From an uncultured Clostridia bacterium (lineage in GTDB: Bacteria > Bacillota > Clostridia > TANB77 > CAG-465): a DNA stretch of 40,232 nucleotides. The translations under genes were made by a program, and so were the position numbers. The notes below the pieces were generated by a model. The model worked only from the letters and a program-made list of their open reading frames with translations, had not been told where the DNA came from and made no database searches. Positions 4,482 through 13,020 of the stretch are shown here, piece after piece (positions within the stretch are counted from its first letter, which is position 1; each line of letters starts with the position of its first letter). The DNA is taken from positions 1 through 40,232 of the forward strand of contig CANRGL010000010.1 in assembly GCA_947630145.1 (NCBI GenBank), given 5' to 3'.

Positions 4482-4505
4482 AGAGAAATTTTAGGAGGTA
4501 TGTTT

Positions 4506-5144
4506 ATGCTTTTGAATTTTTTAAGTAATTTGCTATCACATGTTTTTTTCCTTTTTGGATATATTTCAAATAATAATCTTTTTCCAGAGCCTCTAAGTAA
4601 AACGGAAGAGGAGTATTATTTAAGAAGATATTTTAATGGAGATAAAAACGCAAGAGATAAACTTATAGAACATAATTTAAGATTAGTTGCTCATATTGCA
4701 AAAAGATATTCAAATTCAGAGCAAGAAATGGAAGATTTAATATCTATAGGTATTATAGGGCTAATAAAAGCAATAGATAGCTTTAGCAAAGAAAAGGGAT
4801 ATAAAATTAGCACATATGCTTCAAAATGTGTGGAAAATGAGATATTAATGCATATACGTGCAACTAAAAAAATAAAATCAGAAGTATCAATGAATACCAT
4901 TATTGGTACAGACAAGGATGGTAATGATATGGAACTTGTAGATACTTTAGATGCAGAAGGTAAAGATGCTATTGATACTATATATAACAAGATAATGAGT
5001 GAACAAGTTATAAAATATATTAATACTAAACTATCACAAAGGGATAAGTACATAATGAATTTAAGATATGGACTTAATGGCCATGAACAAAAAACACAAC
5101 AGCAAATAGCTGATGAACTTGGTATATCACGTTCATATGTATAG
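4506..5144 (+). CDS. sigK: Sporulation sigma factor K, 5' part (split by skin-like element)
   Basis: This is the N-terminal 211 residues of pro-sigma-K, the late mother-cell sigma factor. It starts with a hydrophobic pro-sequence (LLNFLSNLLSHVFFLFGYI), expected to be removed by SpoIVFB-type proteolysis. Region 2 follows, with EHNLRLVAHIAKRY and EDLISIGIIGLIKAI. Region 4 breaks off in its helix-turn-helix at ISRSYV, followed by TAG at 5142. ATG 4506 is chosen because AGGAGG (4493-4498) is 7 bp away; ATG 4500 would be only 1 bp away. The truncated product lacks the end of the -35 recognition helix and should be inactive. The missing 18 codons lie at 10281-10337, and joining at the TATGT repeat gives SYVSRIE in frame and a 230-residue protein. 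EHNLRLVAHI is typical of SigK rather than SigE. Confidence 0.95.
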   Translation: MLLNFLSNLLSHVFFLFGYISNNNLFPEPLSKTEEEYYLRRYFNGDKNARDKLIEHNLRLVAHIAKRYSNSEQEMEDLISIGIIGLIKAIDSFSKEKGYKISTYASKCVENEILMHIRATKKIKSEVSMNTIIGTDKDGNDMELVDTLDAEGKDAIDTIYNKIMSEQVIKYINTKLSQRDKYIMNLRYGLNGHEQKTQQQIADELGISRSYV

Positions 5145-5160
5145 CTACATTTTTATGACC
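5119..5160. other. attL of the skin-like element
   Basis: Left junction: the sigK half-site up to 5138, the shared core TATGT (5136-5140), then the element arm ATAGCTACATTTTTATGACC (5141-5160). The element arm read on the minus strand (GGTCATAAAAATGTAGCTAT) mirrors the arm at the right end. The crossover dinucleotide is predicted to be GT at 5139-5140. Confidence 0.85.
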
Positions 5161-5220: not shown

Positions 5221-6795
5221 CTAATTATTATTTAATGATTTAAACTTAAAATAGATATAAATTTTTTTATTGCAATCAATTTCGATTCTATCAATTAAGT
5301 CTATTAATAATGCTCTATTAATTATATTATTATTTGAATATTTTTTTATAATTTTATTCAAAATTTGTGATTCATCAATATTATTCGATTTCATAATATT
5401 TTTTAGCTTGTTTATTTTTTTTATTAAACTTTCTTTTTCCTCTTTTTTTCTATTATAAATCCTTTCAAAATCATCTTGAGATAATACTCCTCTTAACTTA
5501 TCTTCATAAATATTATCAATTTCAAGCTTTATTTTGTTTAAAAGTAAATTAGTATTTTTTAATTCTTTTGAATAAGTATTATTTTTCTTACTTTCTGATA
5601 GTTTTTGTTTAGCTATATATTCTATATTTGTTTTATCAAAATAAGAATTACATATATCTTTAATTTTACTTATAACAATATTCTCTACAAAGTCCATTCT
5701 AATAGAATGACTTGTGCATAATTTTAATCTAGCATAAGAAGTATAAGTTGAACATCTAAAATAATAGACAACACCTTCAGCAAGTCCCTTAGGAGAACAT
5801 CCCATTTTTTTCCCACATTCATGACAATAAACTAAACCTTTTAATAAATAATCATGTGTTTTTACCCTTGTTTGTTTTCTTGTTTCAAGCATTTGTTGTG
5901 CTTTTATGAATGTTTCTTTATCAATAATTGCCTTGTGTGTGTGTTCTACAACTTTCCAGTTTTCTTTTGGTATACGTACACACTTTTTGGATTTGTAGTT
6001 AATCTTCTTCATTCTTCCTTGTACCATATTGCCTATATATACTTCATTAGTTACAATATCTCTAATTCTACTATCAGCCCAATGTTTTGAAATTTTGCTA
6101 ATTTTATAGCCTTGAGATTTTGCGTACTGAGATGGAGTTGGAATTCCATCAAGTGTTAAATCGATAGCAACAGCCCTACAAGATTTACCTGATTTAATTT
6201 CTTTAAAAATTCTTTCTACAATAGGTTTTACATTTTCATCTATTTCTATTTTATTTGGAATATTGGATAATTTGTAACCGTAAGGAGCTTTTCCACCAAT
6301 AAATAAGCCTAAATCTTGTTTATTATTCTTAACGCTTTTAATTTTTTTAGAAATATCTTTAGCATAAAAATCATTGAAAACTGATTTAAACGGAGTAATA
6401 TCATTATTTGATGAATCAATACCTGTATCAACTCCATCAAGAATGGAAATATATCTAACACGATGTTCTGGAAAATATTTTTCTGTATATTCGCCAACTT
6501 TTATGTAATCACGTCCAAGCCTAGACAAATCTTTTGTGATTACCATATTAATTTTTTTGTTTTCAATATCTTGTATCATTTTTTTAAATTCTGGCCTATC
6601 AAATGTAGTACCACTAAATCCATCATCTATATATTCACCTACAATAGCTAGATTTTGTTCTTTTGCATATCTAGTTAAAATACTTCTTTGATTTGAGACA
6701 CTTTCGGATTCTCCAGGCTTTTCATCTTCTTTAGATAATCTAATATATAATGCAACTTTATAATCCATTGGGTTAATAATTTTTAAATAATCCAT
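5221..6795 (-). CDS. spoIVCA: Large serine recombinase, SpoIVCA-like sigK excisionase
   Basis: A 524-residue site-specific recombinase expected to excise the element from sigK in the mother cell. The resolvase catalytic domain (about residues 12-160) has nucleophile Ser21 in YIRLSKEDE and active-site Arg92/Arg95 in SRLGRD. The recombinase domain (about 170-290) has GKAPYGYK. The zinc ribbon has Cys324, Cys327, Cys348 and Cys360. A long coiled coil (about 385-480) precedes the C-terminus. All key residues are intact. AGGGGGG lies 6-8 bases upstream of the start, and a 14-bp perfect palindrome (6838-6851) lies in the leader. The gene converges on the 5' part of sigK, with 76 bp between stop codons. 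The symbol is by analogy: many Clostridia carry related recombinases in unrelated elements, but the position inside sigK makes this role very likely. Confidence 0.93.
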   Translation of the reverse strand: MDYLKIINPMDYKVALYIRLSKEDEKPGESESVSNQRSILTRYAKEQNLAIVGEYIDDGFSGTTFDRPEFKKMIQDIENKKINMVITKDLSRLGRDYIKVGEYTEKYFPEHRVRYISILDGVDTGIDSSNNDITPFKSVFNDFYAKDISKKIKSVKNNKQDLGLFIGGKAPYGYKLSNIPNKIEIDENVKPIVERIFKEIKSGKSCRAVAIDLTLDGIPTPSQYAKSQGYKISKISKHWADSRIRDIVTNEVYIGNMVQGRMKKINYKSKKCVRIPKENWKVVEHTHKAIIDKETFIKAQQMLETRKQTRVKTHDYLLKGLVYCHECGKKMGCSPKGLAEGVVYYFRCSTYTSYARLKLCTSHSIRMDFVENIVISKIKDICNSYFDKTNIEYIAKQKLSESKKNNTYSKELKNTNLLLNKIKLEIDNIYEDKLRGVLSQDDFERIYNRKKEEKESLIKKINKLKNIMKSNNIDESQILNKIIKKYSNNNIINRALLIDLIDRIEIDCNKKIYIYFKFKSLNNN

Positions 6796-6837
6796 TTGCT
6801 CCCCCCTTAAACTAACCCATAAATTAATATTACAAGA

Positions 6838-6851
6838 ATATTATATAATAT
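6838..6851. promoter_or_regulatory. 14-bp AT-only palindrome before the recombinase gene
   Basis: ATATTATATAATAT is a perfect palindrome just upstream of the recombinase leader, at the end of the 47-residue ORF. It could be an operator or a -10-like region. Its all-AT content in an AT-rich genome makes chance plausible. Confidence 0.25.
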
Positions 6852-6852
6852 G

Positions 6853-6996
6853 CTATTCATAAATCCAAACCTCTTTTTTTATATCTTCTGTAATTAAATA
6901 CGTAAATATATCATTTAAAATTTTTTCAATATTTTTACCGTTTTCATTGTAAATATAGATTACATTATTTTTCTTTTTAAAAGTTTCACTATCCAT
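6853..6996 (-). CDS. 47-residue element protein, candidate recombination directionality factor
   Basis: A small ORF of 47 codons with a strong ribosome-binding site (GGGGGGAAATCAAA before the ATG). It lies directly upstream of the recombinase in the same orientation, with 57 bp between them. The product is charged and probably helical (KKKNNVIYIYNENGKNIEK... ending KKEVWIYE) and has no membrane segment. I recognise no family. In the C. difficile sigK element, a small skin-encoded protein is the recombination directionality factor that lets the recombinase excise; this ORF is the only small gene seen in this element, so it is the obvious candidate. That role is inference from position and size only. 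Confidence 0.6.
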   Translation of the reverse strand: MDSETFKKKNNVIYIYNENGKNIEKILNDIFTYLITEDIKKEVWIYE

Positions 6997-7010
6997 TTTG
7001 ATTTCCCCCC

Positions 7011-7253
7011 TAATATATACTATTAAATTTTTATAAAAAAATAACTAAATAGTTATTTGGTAAATTATAGATTAGATTTTCTATGCATATACACGAAAAT
7101 TTTTTATAAAATGTCCTGAAAAATGTAATAAATTTATTAATTAAGATCAAGTACAAAGTACGCCACAATATGTGTACATACATATGGGAATCTTGCTATA
7201 CTTTAAATTATAAATTAATTCAAAATTAGACAAAAAAAACTAAATAAAAATTC
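7011..7253. promoter_or_regulatory. Divergent control region inside the element
   Basis: A non-coding stretch of about 240 bp between the leftward recombinase pair and the rightward restriction-modification operon. It holds a perfect 8-bp inverted repeat AAATAACT-AAAT-AGTTATTT (7039-7058), placed like an operator for the leftward genes, and GTAC-containing clusters at about 7151-7180. No coding potential is seen. A mother-cell promoter for the recombinase is expected here, but I found no convincing sigma-E match. Confidence 0.45.
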
Positions 7254-7282
7254 TTGAAAATAAAAGGTATATATGATATATT
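7254..7282 (+). promoter_or_regulatory. Promoter of the restriction-modification operon
   Basis: TTGAAA (7254-7259), a 17-bp spacer, TATATT (7277-7282). This is a good vegetative sigma-A match, 20 bp upstream of the first methylase start codon. It suggests the operon is expressed in growing cells, independently of sporulation. Confidence 0.65.
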
Positions 7283-7301
7283 TTATATAAGGAGGTTGAG
7301 T

Positions 7302-8162
7302 ATGAAAAAAAGTAAATTAGTTATGCCTGTTTTAAAATGGGTAGGTGGAAAAAGGCAACTACTGCCAGTAATAAATAAACATTTGCCTAAAATTAATAAT
7401 AATACAACCTACTATGAACCTTTCGTGGGTGGTGGCGCTGTACTTTTTAATATACAACCTAAAAAGGCAGTAATTAACGATGTTAATCGTGAGTTAATAG
7501 ATGTATATAAAGTAATAAAAGATAATGTAGATGAATTAATAGATGAATTAAATAATAAGGGAAAATATGACAATACATCTGAATGTTTTTATAAGATTCG
7601 AGAGTTGGATAGAGAGCCTAAAGTATATAATACTCTAAATGCAATTCAACGAGCTGCAAGAATATTATATTTAAATAAAACTTGTTACAATGGATTATAC
7701 AGAGTTAATAGTTCGGGCGAATTTAATTCTCCATTTGGAAGATATAAAAATCCAAATATAATTAATGAAATAGGATTAAGAGCAGTGAGTAAATATTTTA
7801 AGGAATCTGAAATTACTTTCTTATGTGGAGATTTTGAAAGTTCTGTAAAAGGAATAAAAAAAGGCTCTGTAGTTTATTTTGATCCACCATATGCTCCAAT
7901 ATCTAGAACATCAAATTTTACTGGCTATAATGAAAGTGGATTTGGAGATAATGAACAAGAGAGATTAAAAAGATTATGTGATAAATTAACAGATAAAGGA
8001 GTTCACATGTTACTTTCAAATTCTGATTGTGAATACATAAGAAAATTATATTCTGATAGAAATAAATATAAGATAATTCAAGTTAAGGCTAAGAGGAACA
8101 TTAATAGTGATGGTAATTCTAGGGGTGAAATAAGTGAGGTGTTAATAACTAATAATGTCTAG
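7302..8162 (+). CDS. Dam/DpnM-like adenine-N6 DNA methyltransferase (D12 class)
   Basis: A 286-residue alpha-class N6-adenine methylase, close to the length of DpnM (284) and Dam (278). It has the N-terminal LKWVGGKRQLL (about residues 11-21), the SAM-binding YEPFVGGGAVLF (about 38-49), the segment LNKTCYNGLYRVNSSGEFN (about 124-142), which is highly characteristic of Dam/DpnM, and catalytic DPPY (194-197). This pattern suggests GATC or a GATC-containing target, but specificity cannot be proven by eye. ATG 7302 is chosen for the AAGGAGG 7 bp upstream. The next gene overlaps its end by 8 bp. It should protect the host genome from the adjacent nuclease. All motifs are intact. Confidence 0.9.
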   Translation: MKKSKLVMPVLKWVGGKRQLLPVINKHLPKINNNTTYYEPFVGGGAVLFNIQPKKAVINDVNRELIDVYKVIKDNVDELIDELNNKGKYDNTSECFYKIRELDREPKVYNTLNAIQRAARILYLNKTCYNGLYRVNSSGEFNSPFGRYKNPNIINEIGLRAVSKYFKESEITFLCGDFESSVKGIKKGSVVYFDPPYAPISRTSNFTGYNESGFGDNEQERLKRLCDKLTDKGVHMLLSNSDCEYIRKLYSDRNKYKIIQVKAKRNINSDGNSRGEISEVLITNNV

Positions 8163-9438
8163 ATATAGTACAAATAAAGAGGCTTGGGAAAAAATTTTTG
8201 AAGATTTTAATATATTAGAGGAAATAGATAAAAATGGCTTTTTTAAAATCACTTCTAAGCAAATAAATGAATATAGAGAGGCTAGATTGATGACTAAATT
8301 TGATAATAGTGAGGCTATTCCTGAAATATTAGATAAGAATAAATTATCAATCTTACCGATTAGTAGTAACAGTTATATGATTTCTACTTTTTGTACGTAT
8401 AAAAAATTTGAGAAAACACCAAGAGAAATTATACAAATGAATTTCCCTTCGTATATTGAAAGTATTGATTATTCACAGATTACTAGTGAGGCTTTAGCAC
8501 TTAATTGTGCATATATATCAGAAATACTTAAGGACTTTCTTAAAGAAGATGGGTTGGTTCCAACTGTTTGTGGAAAAATGGGATCTGGAAATTTTAGCTT
8601 TAAAATTAAGGATATTTCAAGCAATAATTATATAAATGTTTCGGTTGAAAATTCCAGAATTGAAATTGATGGTGGATACGAGGGATTTGATAGTTTAGCA
8701 ATTGTTGAAGCTAAAAATGTGGTTGCAAAAGATTTTTTAGTAAGGCAATTGTATTATCCGTATAGATTATGGAAATCTAAAATAACAAAGAGGGTAAGAC
8801 CAATATTTATTATATATTCTAATGGAATATTTACAATATATGAATATAAATTTAATGATGACAATGAATATTCATCAATTGAATTGGTTAATAGTAAAAG
8901 GTATAGTATCGAAAATACTGAAATTAATCTTGAAACTATAAAAGAATTATTGGAAAGTATACAGGAATTTGAAAAAGAACCTAATATATCATTCCCACAG
9001 GCAAATAATTTTGAAAGAGTAATTAATATTTGCGAATTAGTTGAAGAGAAGGAAAAAGATAAAAAAGAAATAACAGAAAATTATGAATTTGTAGAAAGAC
9101 AAACAAACTATTATACAGATGCTGCTATTTATTTAGGTTTGCTTAAGAAAAACGGAACTAGAAATAAGTCATATGAACTTACAGAAAAAGGTAGAAAAAT
9201 AATGAGAATGAATTATCAAGATAGACAAATTGAGTTTGCAAAAGCTATTTTGTCACATAAAGTTTTTAATGAAACTATTAAACAATATTTCCTTAAGCTT
9301 GAAATGCCAACTGATAATGAAATAGTTGAATATATGAAAGGAAGCAATTTATATAATGTAGGAAGTGATTCTACATATTATCGAAGAGCTTCTACTATAA
9401 AAGCGTGGATAAATTGGATTATAGAATTAGCGAATTAA
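8155..9438 (+). CDS. Predicted type II restriction endonuclease, PD-(D/E)XK type
   Basis: A 427-residue protein between two DNA methylase genes, overlapping the first by 8 bp. A PD-(D/E)XK-like site is visible: EIDGGYEG with Asp172, then VEAKN with Glu185 and Lys187, followed by FLVRQLYYPYRLW (about 194-206), a pattern I associate with uncharacterised type II restriction enzymes. The C-terminal about 110 residues resemble a winged-helix DNA-binding domain (DAAIYLGLLKKNG...YELTEKGRKIM). It is much longer than DpnII/MboI enzymes and does not look like them, so this is not simply a DpnII operon. The nuclease call rests on the motif and context; the target sequence is unknown. The reading frame is intact. 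Confidence 0.78.
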   Translation: MSRYSTNKEAWEKIFEDFNILEEIDKNGFFKITSKQINEYREARLMTKFDNSEAIPEILDKNKLSILPISSNSYMISTFCTYKKFEKTPREIIQMNFPSYIESIDYSQITSEALALNCAYISEILKDFLKEDGLVPTVCGKMGSGNFSFKIKDISSNNYINVSVENSRIEIDGGYEGFDSLAIVEAKNVVAKDFLVRQLYYPYRLWKSKITKRVRPIFIIYSNGIFTIYEYKFNDDNEYSSIELVNSKRYSIENTEINLETIKELLESIQEFEKEPNISFPQANNFERVINICELVEEKEKDKKEITENYEFVERQTNYYTDAAIYLGLLKKNGTRNKSYELTEKGRKIMRMNYQDRQIEFAKAILSHKVFNETIKQYFLKLEMPTDNEIVEYMKGSNLYNVGSDSTYYRRASTIKAWINWIIELAN

Positions 9439-9444
9439 TTTATT

Positions 9445-9467
9445 AAGGGGAATCTTCTATTCCTCTT
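9445..9467 (+). terminator. Weak intercistronic hairpin
   Basis: AAGGGGAAT-CTTCT-ATTCCTCTT forms a stem with one G-U pair, 7 bp past the nuclease stop and 13 bp before the ribosome-binding site of the second methylase. It is followed by GATTTTATTTA rather than a clean T run. It could attenuate or separate the nuclease from the downstream methylase message. Confidence 0.35.
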
Positions 9468-9491
9468 GATTTTATTTACAGGAGGATATAC

Positions 9492-10217
9492 ATGAATTTA
9501 CAACCTAACAATTTTAAAATAGAAAAAACTTCAATATGGAGTTTTAAAGAAAGAGGAAAATGGGCGACTCATAAGGGAAACTATAGAGGCAATTGCCCAC
9601 CACAAGTGCCAAGAAATTTATTATTAAATTATACAAAAGAAAATGATATTATTTTAGATCCTTTTTGTGGTAGTGGAACAACGTTAATTGAATGTAAATT
9701 ATTAAAAAGGAAAGGAATAGGTATAGATGTTAATGAAAATGCTCTAAAAATAAGTAAGCAAAGATTAGATTTTAATTATAATGTAGAATATAGTCCTAAA
9801 TTAATAAAAGCAAATTCAATTAATTTAAAAAATATAATTTCAAATAATAAAATAGATTTTATATTTATTCATCCACCATATGCAGATATAATTAAGTATA
9901 GTAATGATATAAAAGAAGATATATCAAGATTAAATCTGAAAGAATTTTTAAATCAAATGAATTTATTTTCAAAAGAATGTTTTAGAGTCTTAAAAAAAGG
10001 TAAAATTTGTTCAATATTGATAGGAGATATAAGAAAAAAAGGTAATGTTGTACCATTAGGTTTTTATCTTATGAATATTTTTATTCAAACAGGATTTCAA
10101 TTAAAAGAAATAATAATAAAAGAACAACATAATTGTCAAATGACAGATTATTGGGAAAATAAAAATGTAAATTTTTATCTATTAGCACATGAATATATAT
10201 TTATCTTAAAAAAATAA
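9492..10217 (+). CDS. Second DNA methyltransferase of the R-M operon (N4-C/N6-A type)
   Basis: A 241-residue amino-methyltransferase. Its N-terminal region GNYRGNCPPQVPRNLL (about residues 29-44) is followed by the SAM motif LDPFCGSGTTLIE (55-67) and catalytic HPPYADIIKYS (127-137), where His replaces the usual Asp/Ser of (D/S)PPY. This HPPY form is common in one stand-alone methylase family. Motif I precedes motif IV. AGGAGG (9480-9485) lies 6 bp before the ATG. A second methylase in one operon may act on the other strand of an asymmetric site, or may protect single-stranded DNA during uptake, as DpnA does in the DpnII system. Which applies here is unknown. The stop is 58 bp from the attR core. 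Confidence 0.82.
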   Translation: MNLQPNNFKIEKTSIWSFKERGKWATHKGNYRGNCPPQVPRNLLLNYTKENDIILDPFCGSGTTLIECKLLKRKGIGIDVNENALKISKQRLDFNYNVEYSPKLIKANSINLKNIISNNKIDFIFIHPPYADIIKYSNDIKEDISRLNLKEFLNQMNLFSKECFRVLKKGKICSILIGDIRKKGNVVPLGFYLMNIFIQTGFQLKEIIIKEQHNCQMTDYWENKNVNFYLLAHEYIFILKK

Positions 10218-10257
10218 ATATATGTAATATCTAATTTATGAGTTATAATTTTATTTT

Positions 10258-10300
10258 CGTCATAAATTTGTATCTATGTTTCAAGAATTGAAACTAAAAT
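10258..10300. other. attR of the skin-like element
   Basis: Right junction: element arm CGTCATAAATTTGTATC (10258-10274), core TATGT (10275-10279), then sigK coding sequence. Joined to the left element arm after excision it forms a 42-bp near-palindrome centred on GT (10278-10279), the dyad structure expected for a large serine recombinase attP. Confidence 0.88.
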
Positions 10301-10337
10301 ACAAAATAAATTAAGAAAGTATATAAGGTGGAACTAA
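10278..10337 (+). CDS. sigK: sigK 3' fragment (last 18 residues)
   Basis: From GTT at 10278 the frame reads V-SRIETKIQNKLRKYIRWN-stop, the end of the sigma region 4.2 helix plus a short basic tail. SRIE continues ISRSYV at the end of the 5' part exactly as in intact sigma-K proteins (ISRSYVSRIEKR in B. subtilis). The fragment has no start codon or ribosome-binding site and is too short to work alone, so it is expressed only after excision. It is easy to miss in automatic annotation. Confidence 0.93.
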   Translation, partial: VSRIETKIQNKLRKYIRWN

Positions 10338-10573
10338 AAAGTTAGTTATAATGTTTATATAATTATATTTAATTTCAATAGTTTTTATTGTTTGTGTTTT
10401 GCCCTTTAATATCTTTTATATATCAAAAAAGTAACCAATATTGGTAGTTTTTATTTTTCCTTTTTTGGTTACTTTTTTTATCATTTTTATTACTAAAATT
10501 TCATATTTTCTTTATCACAATCCTGAGTAGTAACTAATGAAAATAAAAAATATAAAAAATTTGTTATGAAAAC
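10338..10573. other. Intergenic region between sigK 3' end and the prepilin-like gene
   Basis: AT-rich, with no ORF I can support. It contains a short hairpin at the sigK stop (AACTAA-AAAG-TTAGTT, 10332-10347) and the strong inverted repeat annotated separately. Nothing else is recognised. Confidence 0.5.
10425..10480. terminator. Bidirectional terminator after sigK
   Basis: A 13-bp perfect inverted repeat AAAAAAGTAACCA (10425-10437) and TGGTTACTTTTTT (10466-10478). A smaller dyad (ACCAATATTGGT) sits at the left arm. It lies 88 bp after the restored sigK stop and supports the claim that the sigK gene ends there. Confidence 0.7.
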
Positions 10574-10606
10574 TTGCGTTTTTTTTTTTTTAGTGTATGC
10601 TATAAG
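10574..10606 (+). promoter_or_regulatory. Promoter region with a T13 tract (possible phase-variable promoter)
   Basis: A -10 of TATAAG (10601-10606) is preceded by TG (extended). TTGCGT (10574-10579) would be the -35 but is 21 bp away, and the extra distance is made by 13 consecutive T (10579-10591). Loss of about 4 T would give a 17-bp spacer. Slippage in such tracts is a known means of switching surface genes. Confidence 0.45.
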
Positions 10607-10634
10607 GGATAAAAATAATATGGAGGAAGATAAG

Positions 10635-11843
10635 ATGAAAAATAACAAAAGAGGTATATCGCTAATAGTATTAATAGTAACGATAATCGTTATAATAATC
10701 CTTGCTGCAGTAGTAATACTAACATTAAGTAAAAATAATCCAGTAGAAAGTGCAAGAAAAGCAAGATTTATGGAAGATGTAAGAAGTTTCCAAGATGAAC
10801 TAGCACTAAGTGTATCAAAGGATTATGTGACAAAAAAAGAAAATAGAAATGAAAAGTTTAATGCGACAGATTTTGATGATATGAAAAACTACATACCAAG
10901 TTTTACCAAAGATTATAAAGATAAATTTACAATACAAGAAGATGAACTTGTGTATAATAAAGATAACGTAACAGAAAATGAGAAAAAATGTTTAGATGAA
11001 TTAGGAATAGGAACAAAGAAAGAAAATTTTGCTAAAAAAGTAGCAGAAGATCCAAAGACATATTATGGGAAATATGTAATAAATTATACAACAGATCATA
11101 GTGAAACTGAAAATGCAGTAGAAAAATGGCAAATATTTCATTCAGATGGAGAGAATATATATTTAATAGCAGATGATTATATAGATGGACAATATGCACC
11201 GAATGGAAAAAAAGGAAATAGTATACGTAAAAATAATACAAATTATCAATTATCATTTGATAACGTATATAATGATTATGAAGGATCACAAAATATAATA
11301 AAAGATTCAAAAGCAAAAAAATGGATAGAGTGGGTAGACAGTTATCCTAATAGTACAAATGAAAATATACGAGCAGTAGCATATATGCTAGATACAAGTG
11401 AAAATGTATGGGGAAAATACGCAGGAAGTAAGGCAAAATATGCAATAGGAGGTCCAACACTAGAAATGTTTGTAGAATCATATAATAAGTCACATGATGC
11501 AAACCTTGCATGTAAAGAAATGACTGATGTTGGATATAAAATAGGATATACCCACGGAAATTATAACAATTATTTAACTGGTTTACCAAATTATGGTATA
11601 GGTTTTAATGACACTTTATATGTGATAAAGGATATTAGTAAAGCTGAAGGTGTATGGCTAAGCTCTCCAGTTTGTACTAACGTTAAGTATTATAATTTGA
11701 TGAGAATTTATTATTCAAGCCGAGGAACGATTTATGTAAATTTTTTGTCTTCTAAAGAAAGTAAACTAGGTTTTCGCCCTGTAGTTTGTCTAAAATCTGA
11801 TATCTCATTAAAAGCTTCAGGAGAAGATTTTGTGATAGAATAA
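10635..11843 (+). CDS. Prepilin-like surface protein with variable-type C-terminal domain
   Basis: A 402-residue protein starting KNNKRGISLIVLIVTIIVIIILAA. This is the hydrophobic helix of type IV prepilin-like proteins after a short basic leader ending in Gly, but position 5 after the Gly is Val rather than the usual Glu. The start is ATG 10635, with GGAGGAAG just upstream. The soluble domain is Lys/Asn/Tyr-rich, and the end (WLSSPVC... to GFRPVVCLKSD) resembles the C-type-lectin/DUF6273-like fold seen in many Clostridial surface proteins and in some diversity-generating targets. No reverse transcriptase or template repeat is visible here. It stands alone between terminators. The family is inferred; its target and export route are unknown. 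Confidence 0.72.
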   Translation: MKNNKRGISLIVLIVTIIVIIILAAVVILTLSKNNPVESARKARFMEDVRSFQDELALSVSKDYVTKKENRNEKFNATDFDDMKNYIPSFTKDYKDKFTIQEDELVYNKDNVTENEKKCLDELGIGTKKENFAKKVAEDPKTYYGKYVINYTTDHSETENAVEKWQIFHSDGENIYLIADDYIDGQYAPNGKKGNSIRKNNTNYQLSFDNVYNDYEGSQNIIKDSKAKKWIEWVDSYPNSTNENIRAVAYMLDTSENVWGKYAGSKAKYAIGGPTLEMFVESYNKSHDANLACKEMTDVGYKIGYTHGNYNNYLTGLPNYGIGFNDTLYVIKDISKAEGVWLSSPVCTNVKYYNLMRIYYSSRGTIYVNFLSSKESKLGFRPVVCLKSDISLKASGEDFVIE

Positions 11844-11904: not shown

Positions 11905-13020
11905 TTATGATCCTAGATATTGTATAACAACTGTAAGTAATGCATTAGCAAAATAGGAGTTGGTATCAATAAGGGTAATATTTGGTGTATTTAAATATAT
12001 ATTTCTATTTGTTAAATTTACAATTTCGTAATCATTATCAGTGTTAGCAATACTTAAAACACCTTGCGCTACTAATTTTACAGAAGATTTGTTGTAAACC
12101 CATTGAGTGTCACCAACATATATTCTATCAGTCCCAACAGCTTTAAGTCCAATTGAGACAAAGTCAGTATTTTCATCAAAAGATACATTGTTCTGGAAAG
12201 GTACATATGCATTTGCTGTGATCAGAACTTTATATGCACCTATTTTGTTAAATTTAAATGTTTTATCAGTGGTATTTAAAGTACATATTTTTTCATAATT
12301 CATTTCTTCTCTAGAAATAGGAAGTCTACCTTTAGGTTGAATTTCTAAGCCAGTAGAAGGATAGCCTGTGTTAAATGATATAAAATATACTGTACCAATT
12401 CTTTCAGGACCAGTAGGACCAGTAACACCTTGAGGCCCAGGATCACCTTGAGGCCCTTTTATTCTACCAACGTTTATCCAATCTTTATCTTTTTCTGACC
12501 AAACATATAAATCAGAATTAACTATATAACTATCACCTTTGTTACCTGTTGAATGTTCTTTTTTTAATTCATCTTCGGAAGGATATTCACCTAAAATACT
12601 TACTCCTGTACCATCAACGCCATCTTTACCTGGAGGACCTTGTATTCCTTGCTTTCCTTCTGGGCCTGGTATACCTTGGGGTCCCATAGGTCCCTCTACA
12701 CCTTGAGCTCCAGTTGCACCAGCAGGTATAACAAATTCTAATATATGGTTAAATTCATCTCCCATATCTGTTATTGAAGCAGGTGAACCTGGCTCACCAG
12801 TAGTTATATTACCAATAGATACAGAAGATATAGAACCTGCAGGTCCAGTAGGTCCAGTAGGCCCAGTAGCACCAGTAGGTCCAGTAGCGCCAGTAGCACC
12901 ATTAAAACCTTGTTGACCTTGTACACCTTGAGGGCCAGGAGGACCAGGCACACCGTTATAACATATTATTGGATTGCAACAATTATTAGGTATTTTTGTA
13001 TTACAGCAATTATTATTCAT
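11905..13020 (-). CDS. Collagen-like protein, BclA/exosporium type
   Basis: A 371-residue protein with a Cys-rich N-terminus (NNNCCN, NNCCNP) and Gly-X-Y collagen repeats in three blocks (about residues 24-60, 99-136 and 188-207). These include GPTGATGPTGPTGP runs. Between them are two modules well known from phage and exosporium proteins: a GEPGSPASITDMGDEFNH...FVIPAG segment (about 70-98) and a GTGVSILGEYPSEDELKKEH...DLYVW segment (about 137-174). The C-terminal about 150 residues look like a BclA/TNF-like trimerisation domain ending ALLTVVIQYLGS. AGGAGG lies just upstream. There is no signal peptide, as in spore-surface collagen-like proteins assembled in the mother cell. Exosporium location is inferred; no clear sigma-K promoter was found. 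Confidence 0.88.
   Translation of the reverse strand: MNNNCCNTKIPNNCCNPIICYNGVPGPPGPQGVQGQQGFNGATGATGPTGATGPTGPTGPAGSISSVSIGNITTGEPGSPASITDMGDEFNHILEFVIPAGATGAQGVEGPMGPQGIPGPEGKQGIQGPPGKDGVDGTGVSILGEYPSEDELKKEHSTGNKGDSYIVNSDLYVWSEKDKDWINVGRIKGPQGDPGPQGVTGPTGPERIGTVYFISFNTGYPSTGLEIQPKGRLPISREEMNYEKICTLNTTDKTFKFNKIGAYKVLITANAYVPFQNNVSFDENTDFVSIGLKAVGTDRIYVGDTQWVYNKSSVKLVAQGVLSIANTDNDYEIVNLTNRNIYLNTPNITLIDTNSYFANALLTVVIQYLGS

Follow-up and report, generated by a model that had tools for sequence, protein, structure and literature searches.

The sigK gene of an uncultured Clostridia bacterium is interrupted, within the 40,232-nucleotide stretch of DNA analysed here (the window), by an element of about 5.1 kb carrying a predicted type II restriction-modification (R-M) system, and these genes are probably the phage-defence cargo of a sigK-targeting integrative element that the mother cell would excise and the forespore would retain. 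In the proposed course of events, a large serine recombinase would have inserted the 5.1 kb element into the end of sigK, and the R-M cargo would most likely protect growing cells against phages. During sporulation the recombinase, probably aided by the product of a small upstream ORF, would cut the element out of the mother-cell chromosome as a circle, which would restore sigK. The forespore would keep the element, and therefore the defence genes would pass on through spores. An R-M operon as cargo of a sigK-interrupting element had been claimed by the first-pass annotation, and the claim holds: the three genes lie in the place it gave, between the recombinase and attR, and are full length.

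The split gene and its att cores can be read directly from the window (Table 1). The 5' part of sigK matches the SigK profile PRK05803 (E = 9.2e-84, profile positions 4-213 of 235), and its frame meets a stop at 5144, within element DNA. Removal of 5139 bases, from TATGT to TATGT, yields a single in-frame SigK of 244 aa with the C-terminus GISRSYVSRIETKIQNKLRKYIRWN. The insertion point corresponds to the codons for SRSYV/SRIE, near the 3' end of sigK, and the arms TTATGAC and GTCATAA lie on the element side of both cores. As in skin-type elements, both sigK parts are in frame after removal and a large serine recombinase adjoins a sigK part; the element should be excised in the mother cell during sporulation, as predicted from this arrangement. 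Between the att sites there are the recombinase, a small ORF and the R-M genes, and no prophage-like genes such as those of the original skin were found there. The split sigK is the only match above the SigK model cut-off in the source assembly, which is 88% complete, and Rfam and tRNA scans of the whole window gave no matches. Just downstream of sigK (11905-13020, minus strand) lies a gene for a collagen-like GXX-repeat protein, of a kind that occurs among spore surface proteins.

Table 1. Features of the split sigK gene and of the element inside it, in window positions.
Feature	Position	Strand	Basis
sigK 5' part (regions 2 to 4.2)	4500..5140	+	SigK profile match and join
attL core TATGT	5136..5140		same placement in related elements
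attL arm TTATGAC	5153..5159		inverted repeat of attR arm
Large serine recombinase (Resolvase, Recombinase and Zn ribbon domains)	5221..6795	-	Pfam
47-aa ORF, candidate recombination directionality factor	6853..6996	-	position upstream of recombinase, conservation
M1, D12-class N6-adenine methylase, Dam/DpnM type	7302..8162	+	Pfam, PADLOC, structure match
R, predicted type II restriction enzyme, DUF6996-DUF6997-DUF7226, EID...E.K motif	8155..9438	+	Pfam, PADLOC, alignment
M2, N6/N4 methylase, motif I (DPFCGSGTT) before motif IV (HPPY)	9492..10217	+	Pfam, PADLOC, alignment
attR arm GTCATAA	10259..10265		sequence comparison
attR core TATGT	10275..10279		join of sigK parts
sigK 3' end (YVSRIETKIQNKLRKYIRWN, stop)	10275..10337	+	join of sigK parts

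The cargo genes are intact and co-directional, and they look like one operon because the 3' end of M1 overlaps the start of R and M2 begins 53 bases after R. M1 matches MethyltransfD12 of Pfam (E = 1.8e-75), and its nearest solved structure is that of DpnM (2dpm, E = 1.5e-77), with an alignment that spans DpnM, DPPY included. R has been assigned by PADLOC to REase_II (PDLC03513, E = 5.9e-120); its only Pfam matches are DUF6996, DUF6997 and DUF7226, and a comparison with solved structures gave no match. Its motif EID-x-x-x-E...E.K, in which EID and E.K are invariant across nine aligned homologues, fits a PD-(D/E)XK nuclease. M2 matches N6_N4_Mtase of Pfam (E = 6.5e-31) and MTase_II of PADLOC (E = 1.9e-79), and DPFCGSGTT and HPPY are retained in its one homologue. 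With a methylase and a separate endonuclease side by side and conserved catalytic motifs, M1-R-M2 is predicted to be a type II R-M system, whose enzymes would be active. The earlier description of two methylases flanking a PD-(D/E)XK nuclease is thus borne out in gene layout and motif and is to be amended in two respects: the start of M1 is most likely the ATG at 7302, behind AAGGAGG, rather than the TTG at 7254, and the PD-(D/E)XK fold of R is putative, an AlphaFold2 model of R alone, from its single sequence, having been unusable (mean pLDDT 41.5, pTM 0.25). Pseudogene status in most relatives had been named as a sign against the proposal; the nine aligned R homologues do not have it, and in three other relatives (L252, L254, L255) R is shortened or cut by a contig end. 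Site avoidance was analysed with Markov counts of every 4- to 6-mer over 400 kb of the source genome and 120-160 kb from each of three congeners, and no word avoided in the source genome alone was found to fit the methylases. The observed/expected ratio of GATC was 0.61 in the source genome versus 0.59, 0.60 and 0.48 in the congeners, and CCGG was low in the source genome only (26 seen versus 67 expected, which are few counts). GATC and CATG are under-represented alike, at 0.48-0.67 of expected, in the source genome (400 kb, L209-L228) and the three congeners.

The recombinase belongs to a family dedicated to sigK. Of 385 genomes searched in the order, 11 contain a match to the recombinase at E<=1e-140, in every case next to a sigK half. 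Both halves lie on one contig in eight (the window, G063, G362, G113, G127, G101, G372 and G332); in G049 they are split between two contigs, and in G286 and G374 the 3' half only was found. Relatives in sigK elements are 52-68% identical to the window's recombinase. A scan of 84,980 species genomes confirmed at least 528 relatives, and the best 80 of these were used. A sigK half-motif is present in the locus, on the expected side, in 72 of these best 80 (both ends in 20, one end in 52, none in 8), and it lies less than 500 bp from the recombinase in 69 of them, versus 8 of 364 1-kb stretches taken at random from these loci. Joining by script of 18 elements restored a SigK frame of 227-287 aa in 13; in the other five (L098, L101, L105, L109 and L137) the frame was shorter, 44-178 aa, a sign that some of the host genes or assemblies are damaged. 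In IMG/VR, a sigK 3' motif adjoins the recombinase in two of 17 loci. Within the genus the insertion is sporadic, since 25 of 27 other genomes have an uninterrupted sigK with a full-length SigK match, the remaining two having no match. Truncated SigK matches in G071 and G048 were discounted, because the complete SRSYVSRIE is present there in one frame. The elements of L137 and L139 (both 6281-11642), two records whose flanks do not align, are 93% identical over 5690 bp of element and sigK ends, a sign of between-host transfer. The source genome has two more large serine recombinases, in tandem (G000:C2:41095-44211) and 36-40% identical to the window's. A separate peculiarity of sigK was seen in four genomes of one genus (L076, L077, L078 and L079, from G064, G056, G039 and G062), where the gene lies in two frames with a +1 offset at CTT_CGG. 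If the shift follows the CTT codon, the product reads NDAL-GQDKDGNEI, where the usual form is NDAIGTDKDGNEI, and CGG is nearly unused (0, 5, 0 and 0 among 1431-2130 codons counted per locus). This is a candidate for a programmed +1 frameshift. Another sigK, that of L081 (G033), has a +1 split at ACT_CGG.

An alternative is that the element is locked, its recombinase inactive, sigK dead and the organism non-sporulating. Decay does occur in the recombinase family, since stop codons break three of the 11 closest recombinases; those of L098 (G101), L100 (G372) and L101 (G332) carry stops, and sigK may be locked in its split state there. For the window this is very improbable, because its recombinase frame is uninterrupted and has kept all three domains, and joining the sigK parts gives a full-length, in-frame gene. 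The 47-aa ORF is a candidate recombination directionality factor: it has no Pfam family above cut-off, and in 70 of the best 80 of 528 loci a relative of it sits immediately upstream of the recombinase gene, with no relative at any other place in the loci. In Clostridium difficile, a 72-aa factor, CD1234, controlled by sigma-E and SpoIIID, is reported to direct skin excision (PMC5025042). By analogy, mother-cell control of excision is likely for the recombinase family. CATA occurs upstream of the small ORF in 59 of 62 regions of relatives (31.1 in shuffles, 46 on the reverse strand), and the SpoIIID-like ACARNY followed 14-26 bases later by CATA occurs in 22 of 62 (shuffles with a mean of 2.0 and a maximum of 5, reverse strand 6), an excess that is suggestive only, because the pattern was written after the sequences had been viewed and the loci are related. 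In the window, the corresponding promoter region lacks the ACARNY-CATA pair and is not one of the 22 matches. Two strict sigma-E patterns gave no clear excess, with 5 of 68 (shuffle mean 1.45, maximum 5) and 1 of 68.

The R-M operon itself recurs in a second sigK element. PF22518 is present in nine of 385 genomes of the order, and among these M2 is also present in G325 only, where M1, R and M2 are 79%, 71% and 78% identical to those of the window and the gene order is unchanged. Downstream of the operon, on the same contig, a serine recombinase gene broken into three frame pieces is followed by the 3' part of sigK from VRIANEILMH. The window recombinase has no match in this locus, and the N-terminal piece of the G325 recombinase shares 59% identity with a different resolvase-family recombinase encoded in the window's genome. 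The sigK 5' part of G325 is on a separate contig and ends at profile position 119, and because of this the insertion site differs from that of the window; in the assembly the element is in separate pieces, with an interrupted recombinase frame. The other seven R homologues of the order have no sigK within the stretches examined; M2 of G362 cannot be judged, because the contig ends within R, and the contigs of G266 and G318 end near R. Relatives of R are also found on 22 plasmid records, with an adenine methylase alongside in all three regions examined, and none was confirmed in phage records or IMG/VR. A short sigK element at this other sigK site, with PP-loop reductase-like cargo and a G325-type recombinase, was noticed in L294 (G149, 5466-9228).

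Defence cargo is a recurrent content of related sigK elements. With PADLOC (E<=1e-20), 82 ORFs of 22 elements were scanned (the 20 two-ended loci plus G063 and G127, the window excluded), a set that leaves aside the 52 one-ended loci and ORFs shorter than 120 aa and includes two related pairs, L137/L139 and L105/L097; the matches listed are 25 of 68 matched families. Among the matches listed, a complete multi-gene defence system is present in three of the 22 elements besides the window, the others being without one. L102 (WRFS01000009.1), whose recombinase is 67% identical, has an HpaII nuclease paired with a C5 methylase, as well as both Thoeris genes (ThsA, E = 3.1e-62; ThsB, E = 5.9e-74). 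Another example is the Kiwa pair of L120 (KwaA, 5e-14; KwaB, 4.9e-78), and L109 has two Pycsar cyclases (PycC) and a PycTM effector. Single-gene candidates are three SoFic proteins (among the matches listed), the SIR2 protein of L153, the OLD-like ATPase of L120 and, in L127, a CARF protein accompanied by a shortened D12 methylase. The first-pass annotation had proposed a survey of related sigK elements for R-M cargo. Such cargo is present in L102 (the HpaII system), among the 22, and in G325 (the same operon), and among the 11 close genomes of the order R-M genes were found, within readable sequence, in the window only. Ordinary cargo is frequent as well: G063 has two-component and ABC genes, G127 has genes for sigma and anti-sigma factors, G332 has a P-type ATPase, and G372 has almost nothing beyond the recombinase. 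An amidohydrolase, related-looking, recurs as cargo in L072/L071 (G049), L094 (G362) and L101 (G332).

This variety, together with the presence of R homologues on plasmids, would suit a neutral hitch-hiker, that is, an element that acquires any mobile gene and holds defence genes only because they are common mobile genes. We consider this explanation unlikely, though the strongest of the competing ones. In the control, which took by hand 82 of the 170 ORFs that flank these elements, mostly the ones closest to them, no complete defence system was found at E<=1e-20, as against the three of 22 elements among the matches listed; 24 families were matched there by one ORF each (DpdF, PDC-S01, PsyrT, RtcR-type, Cas3-like, BrxH). 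The control is small and compares islands with the core chromosome, not with other islands. Also against hitch-hiking, two sigK elements share one operon despite having unrelated recombinases.

Type II R-M systems can act as addiction modules, and the first-pass annotation had weighed a selfish stabilisation of this kind against a defence gene kept inside sigK. If the element were lost during growth, the methylase would run out and the nuclease would kill the cell; excision in the mother cell would cost nothing, since that cell dies anyway. The intact operon, nuclease included, and its recurrence in G325 are consistent with such a role, which nevertheless appears, on indirect evidence, rather improbable: sister elements with non-R-M or no defence cargo are also found, the element is sporadic among congeners, and other R homologues are located outside sigK. 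Thoeris, Kiwa and Pycsar are not known to act as post-segregational killers in the way that R-M systems can, and the defence-cargo idea is favoured because sister elements carry these systems. As related sigK elements carry other anti-phage systems, the element looks like a swappable defence cassette.

The frequent splitting of sporulation genes by mobile elements calls for an explanation, and the sigK elements known so far have mostly been described as active or decayed prophages; those of C. tetani and Alicyclobacillus are described as prophages. A sigK-dedicated family with Thoeris, Kiwa, Pycsar and type II R-M genes points to a different explanation, namely that a split sigK offers insertion without growth cost and spread by spores, which the element would repay as phage defence. 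Tentatively, and with somewhat less than even confidence, sigK could be a dedicated landing site for widespread small non-phage elements of gut Clostridia with interchangeable anti-phage cassettes, in which immune genes would be kept in growing cells and spores and shed by terminal mother cells, with the same R-M operon brought into sigK independently by different recombinase families. The recombinase family offers many culturable hosts in which the defence idea can be tested, and culturable carriers of sister elements include Pseudoflavonifractor capillosus An827 (L153) and Blautia wexlerae MSK.20.46 (L145). In the open-licence literature no report was found of this recombinase family, nor any that places Thoeris, Kiwa or Pycsar inside a sigK element, and what looks new is the pattern of a sigK-tied recombinase family with varied defence cargo. 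R-M cargo as such is not new; the first-pass statement that no described case exists has to be withdrawn, since two precedents are published, one a sigK insertion of 22 kb whose cargo is a type I R-M system and which is excised during sporulation (PMC10745906), the other the R-M genes of the gerE element gin (PMC5595907).

The sigK insertion, island IV of Bacillus cereus biovar anthracis and of EFR-4/EFR-1, is among the closest known counterparts: it is likewise a non-phage sigK insertion with R-M cargo, and its serine recombinase also adjoins the sigK 5' fragment in opposite orientation (PMC10745906). Its excision in sporulation is reported, whereas that of the window element is predicted from sequence; it is 22 kb with a type I system, not 5.1 kb with a type II system, and it is inserted 195 from the start codon in another host class, not near the sigK 3' end. 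Another example is gin, which interrupts gerE in B. cereus ATCC10987 and is also a non-prophage element of a sporulation gene with R-M genes and a recombinase (PMC5595907). Its small helper protein GirX (42 aa) has a possible counterpart in the candidate 47-aa ORF, although gin differs in target, size (28.6 kb) and number of recombinases (three). The skin elements of B. subtilis and C. difficile share the interrupted sigK and the large serine recombinase and, in C. difficile, a small directionality factor (CD1234) for which the 47-aa ORF is again the candidate equivalent; they are prophage-like, larger and at another sigK site (PMC5025042), unlike the window element, which has no phage gene. 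Finally, the cargo resembles the DpnII system in having two methylases and one nuclease, M1 being closest to DpnM among solved structures; the gene order M1-R-M2 is different, and R consists of DUF6996/6997/7226 with no DpnII-type family in Pfam.
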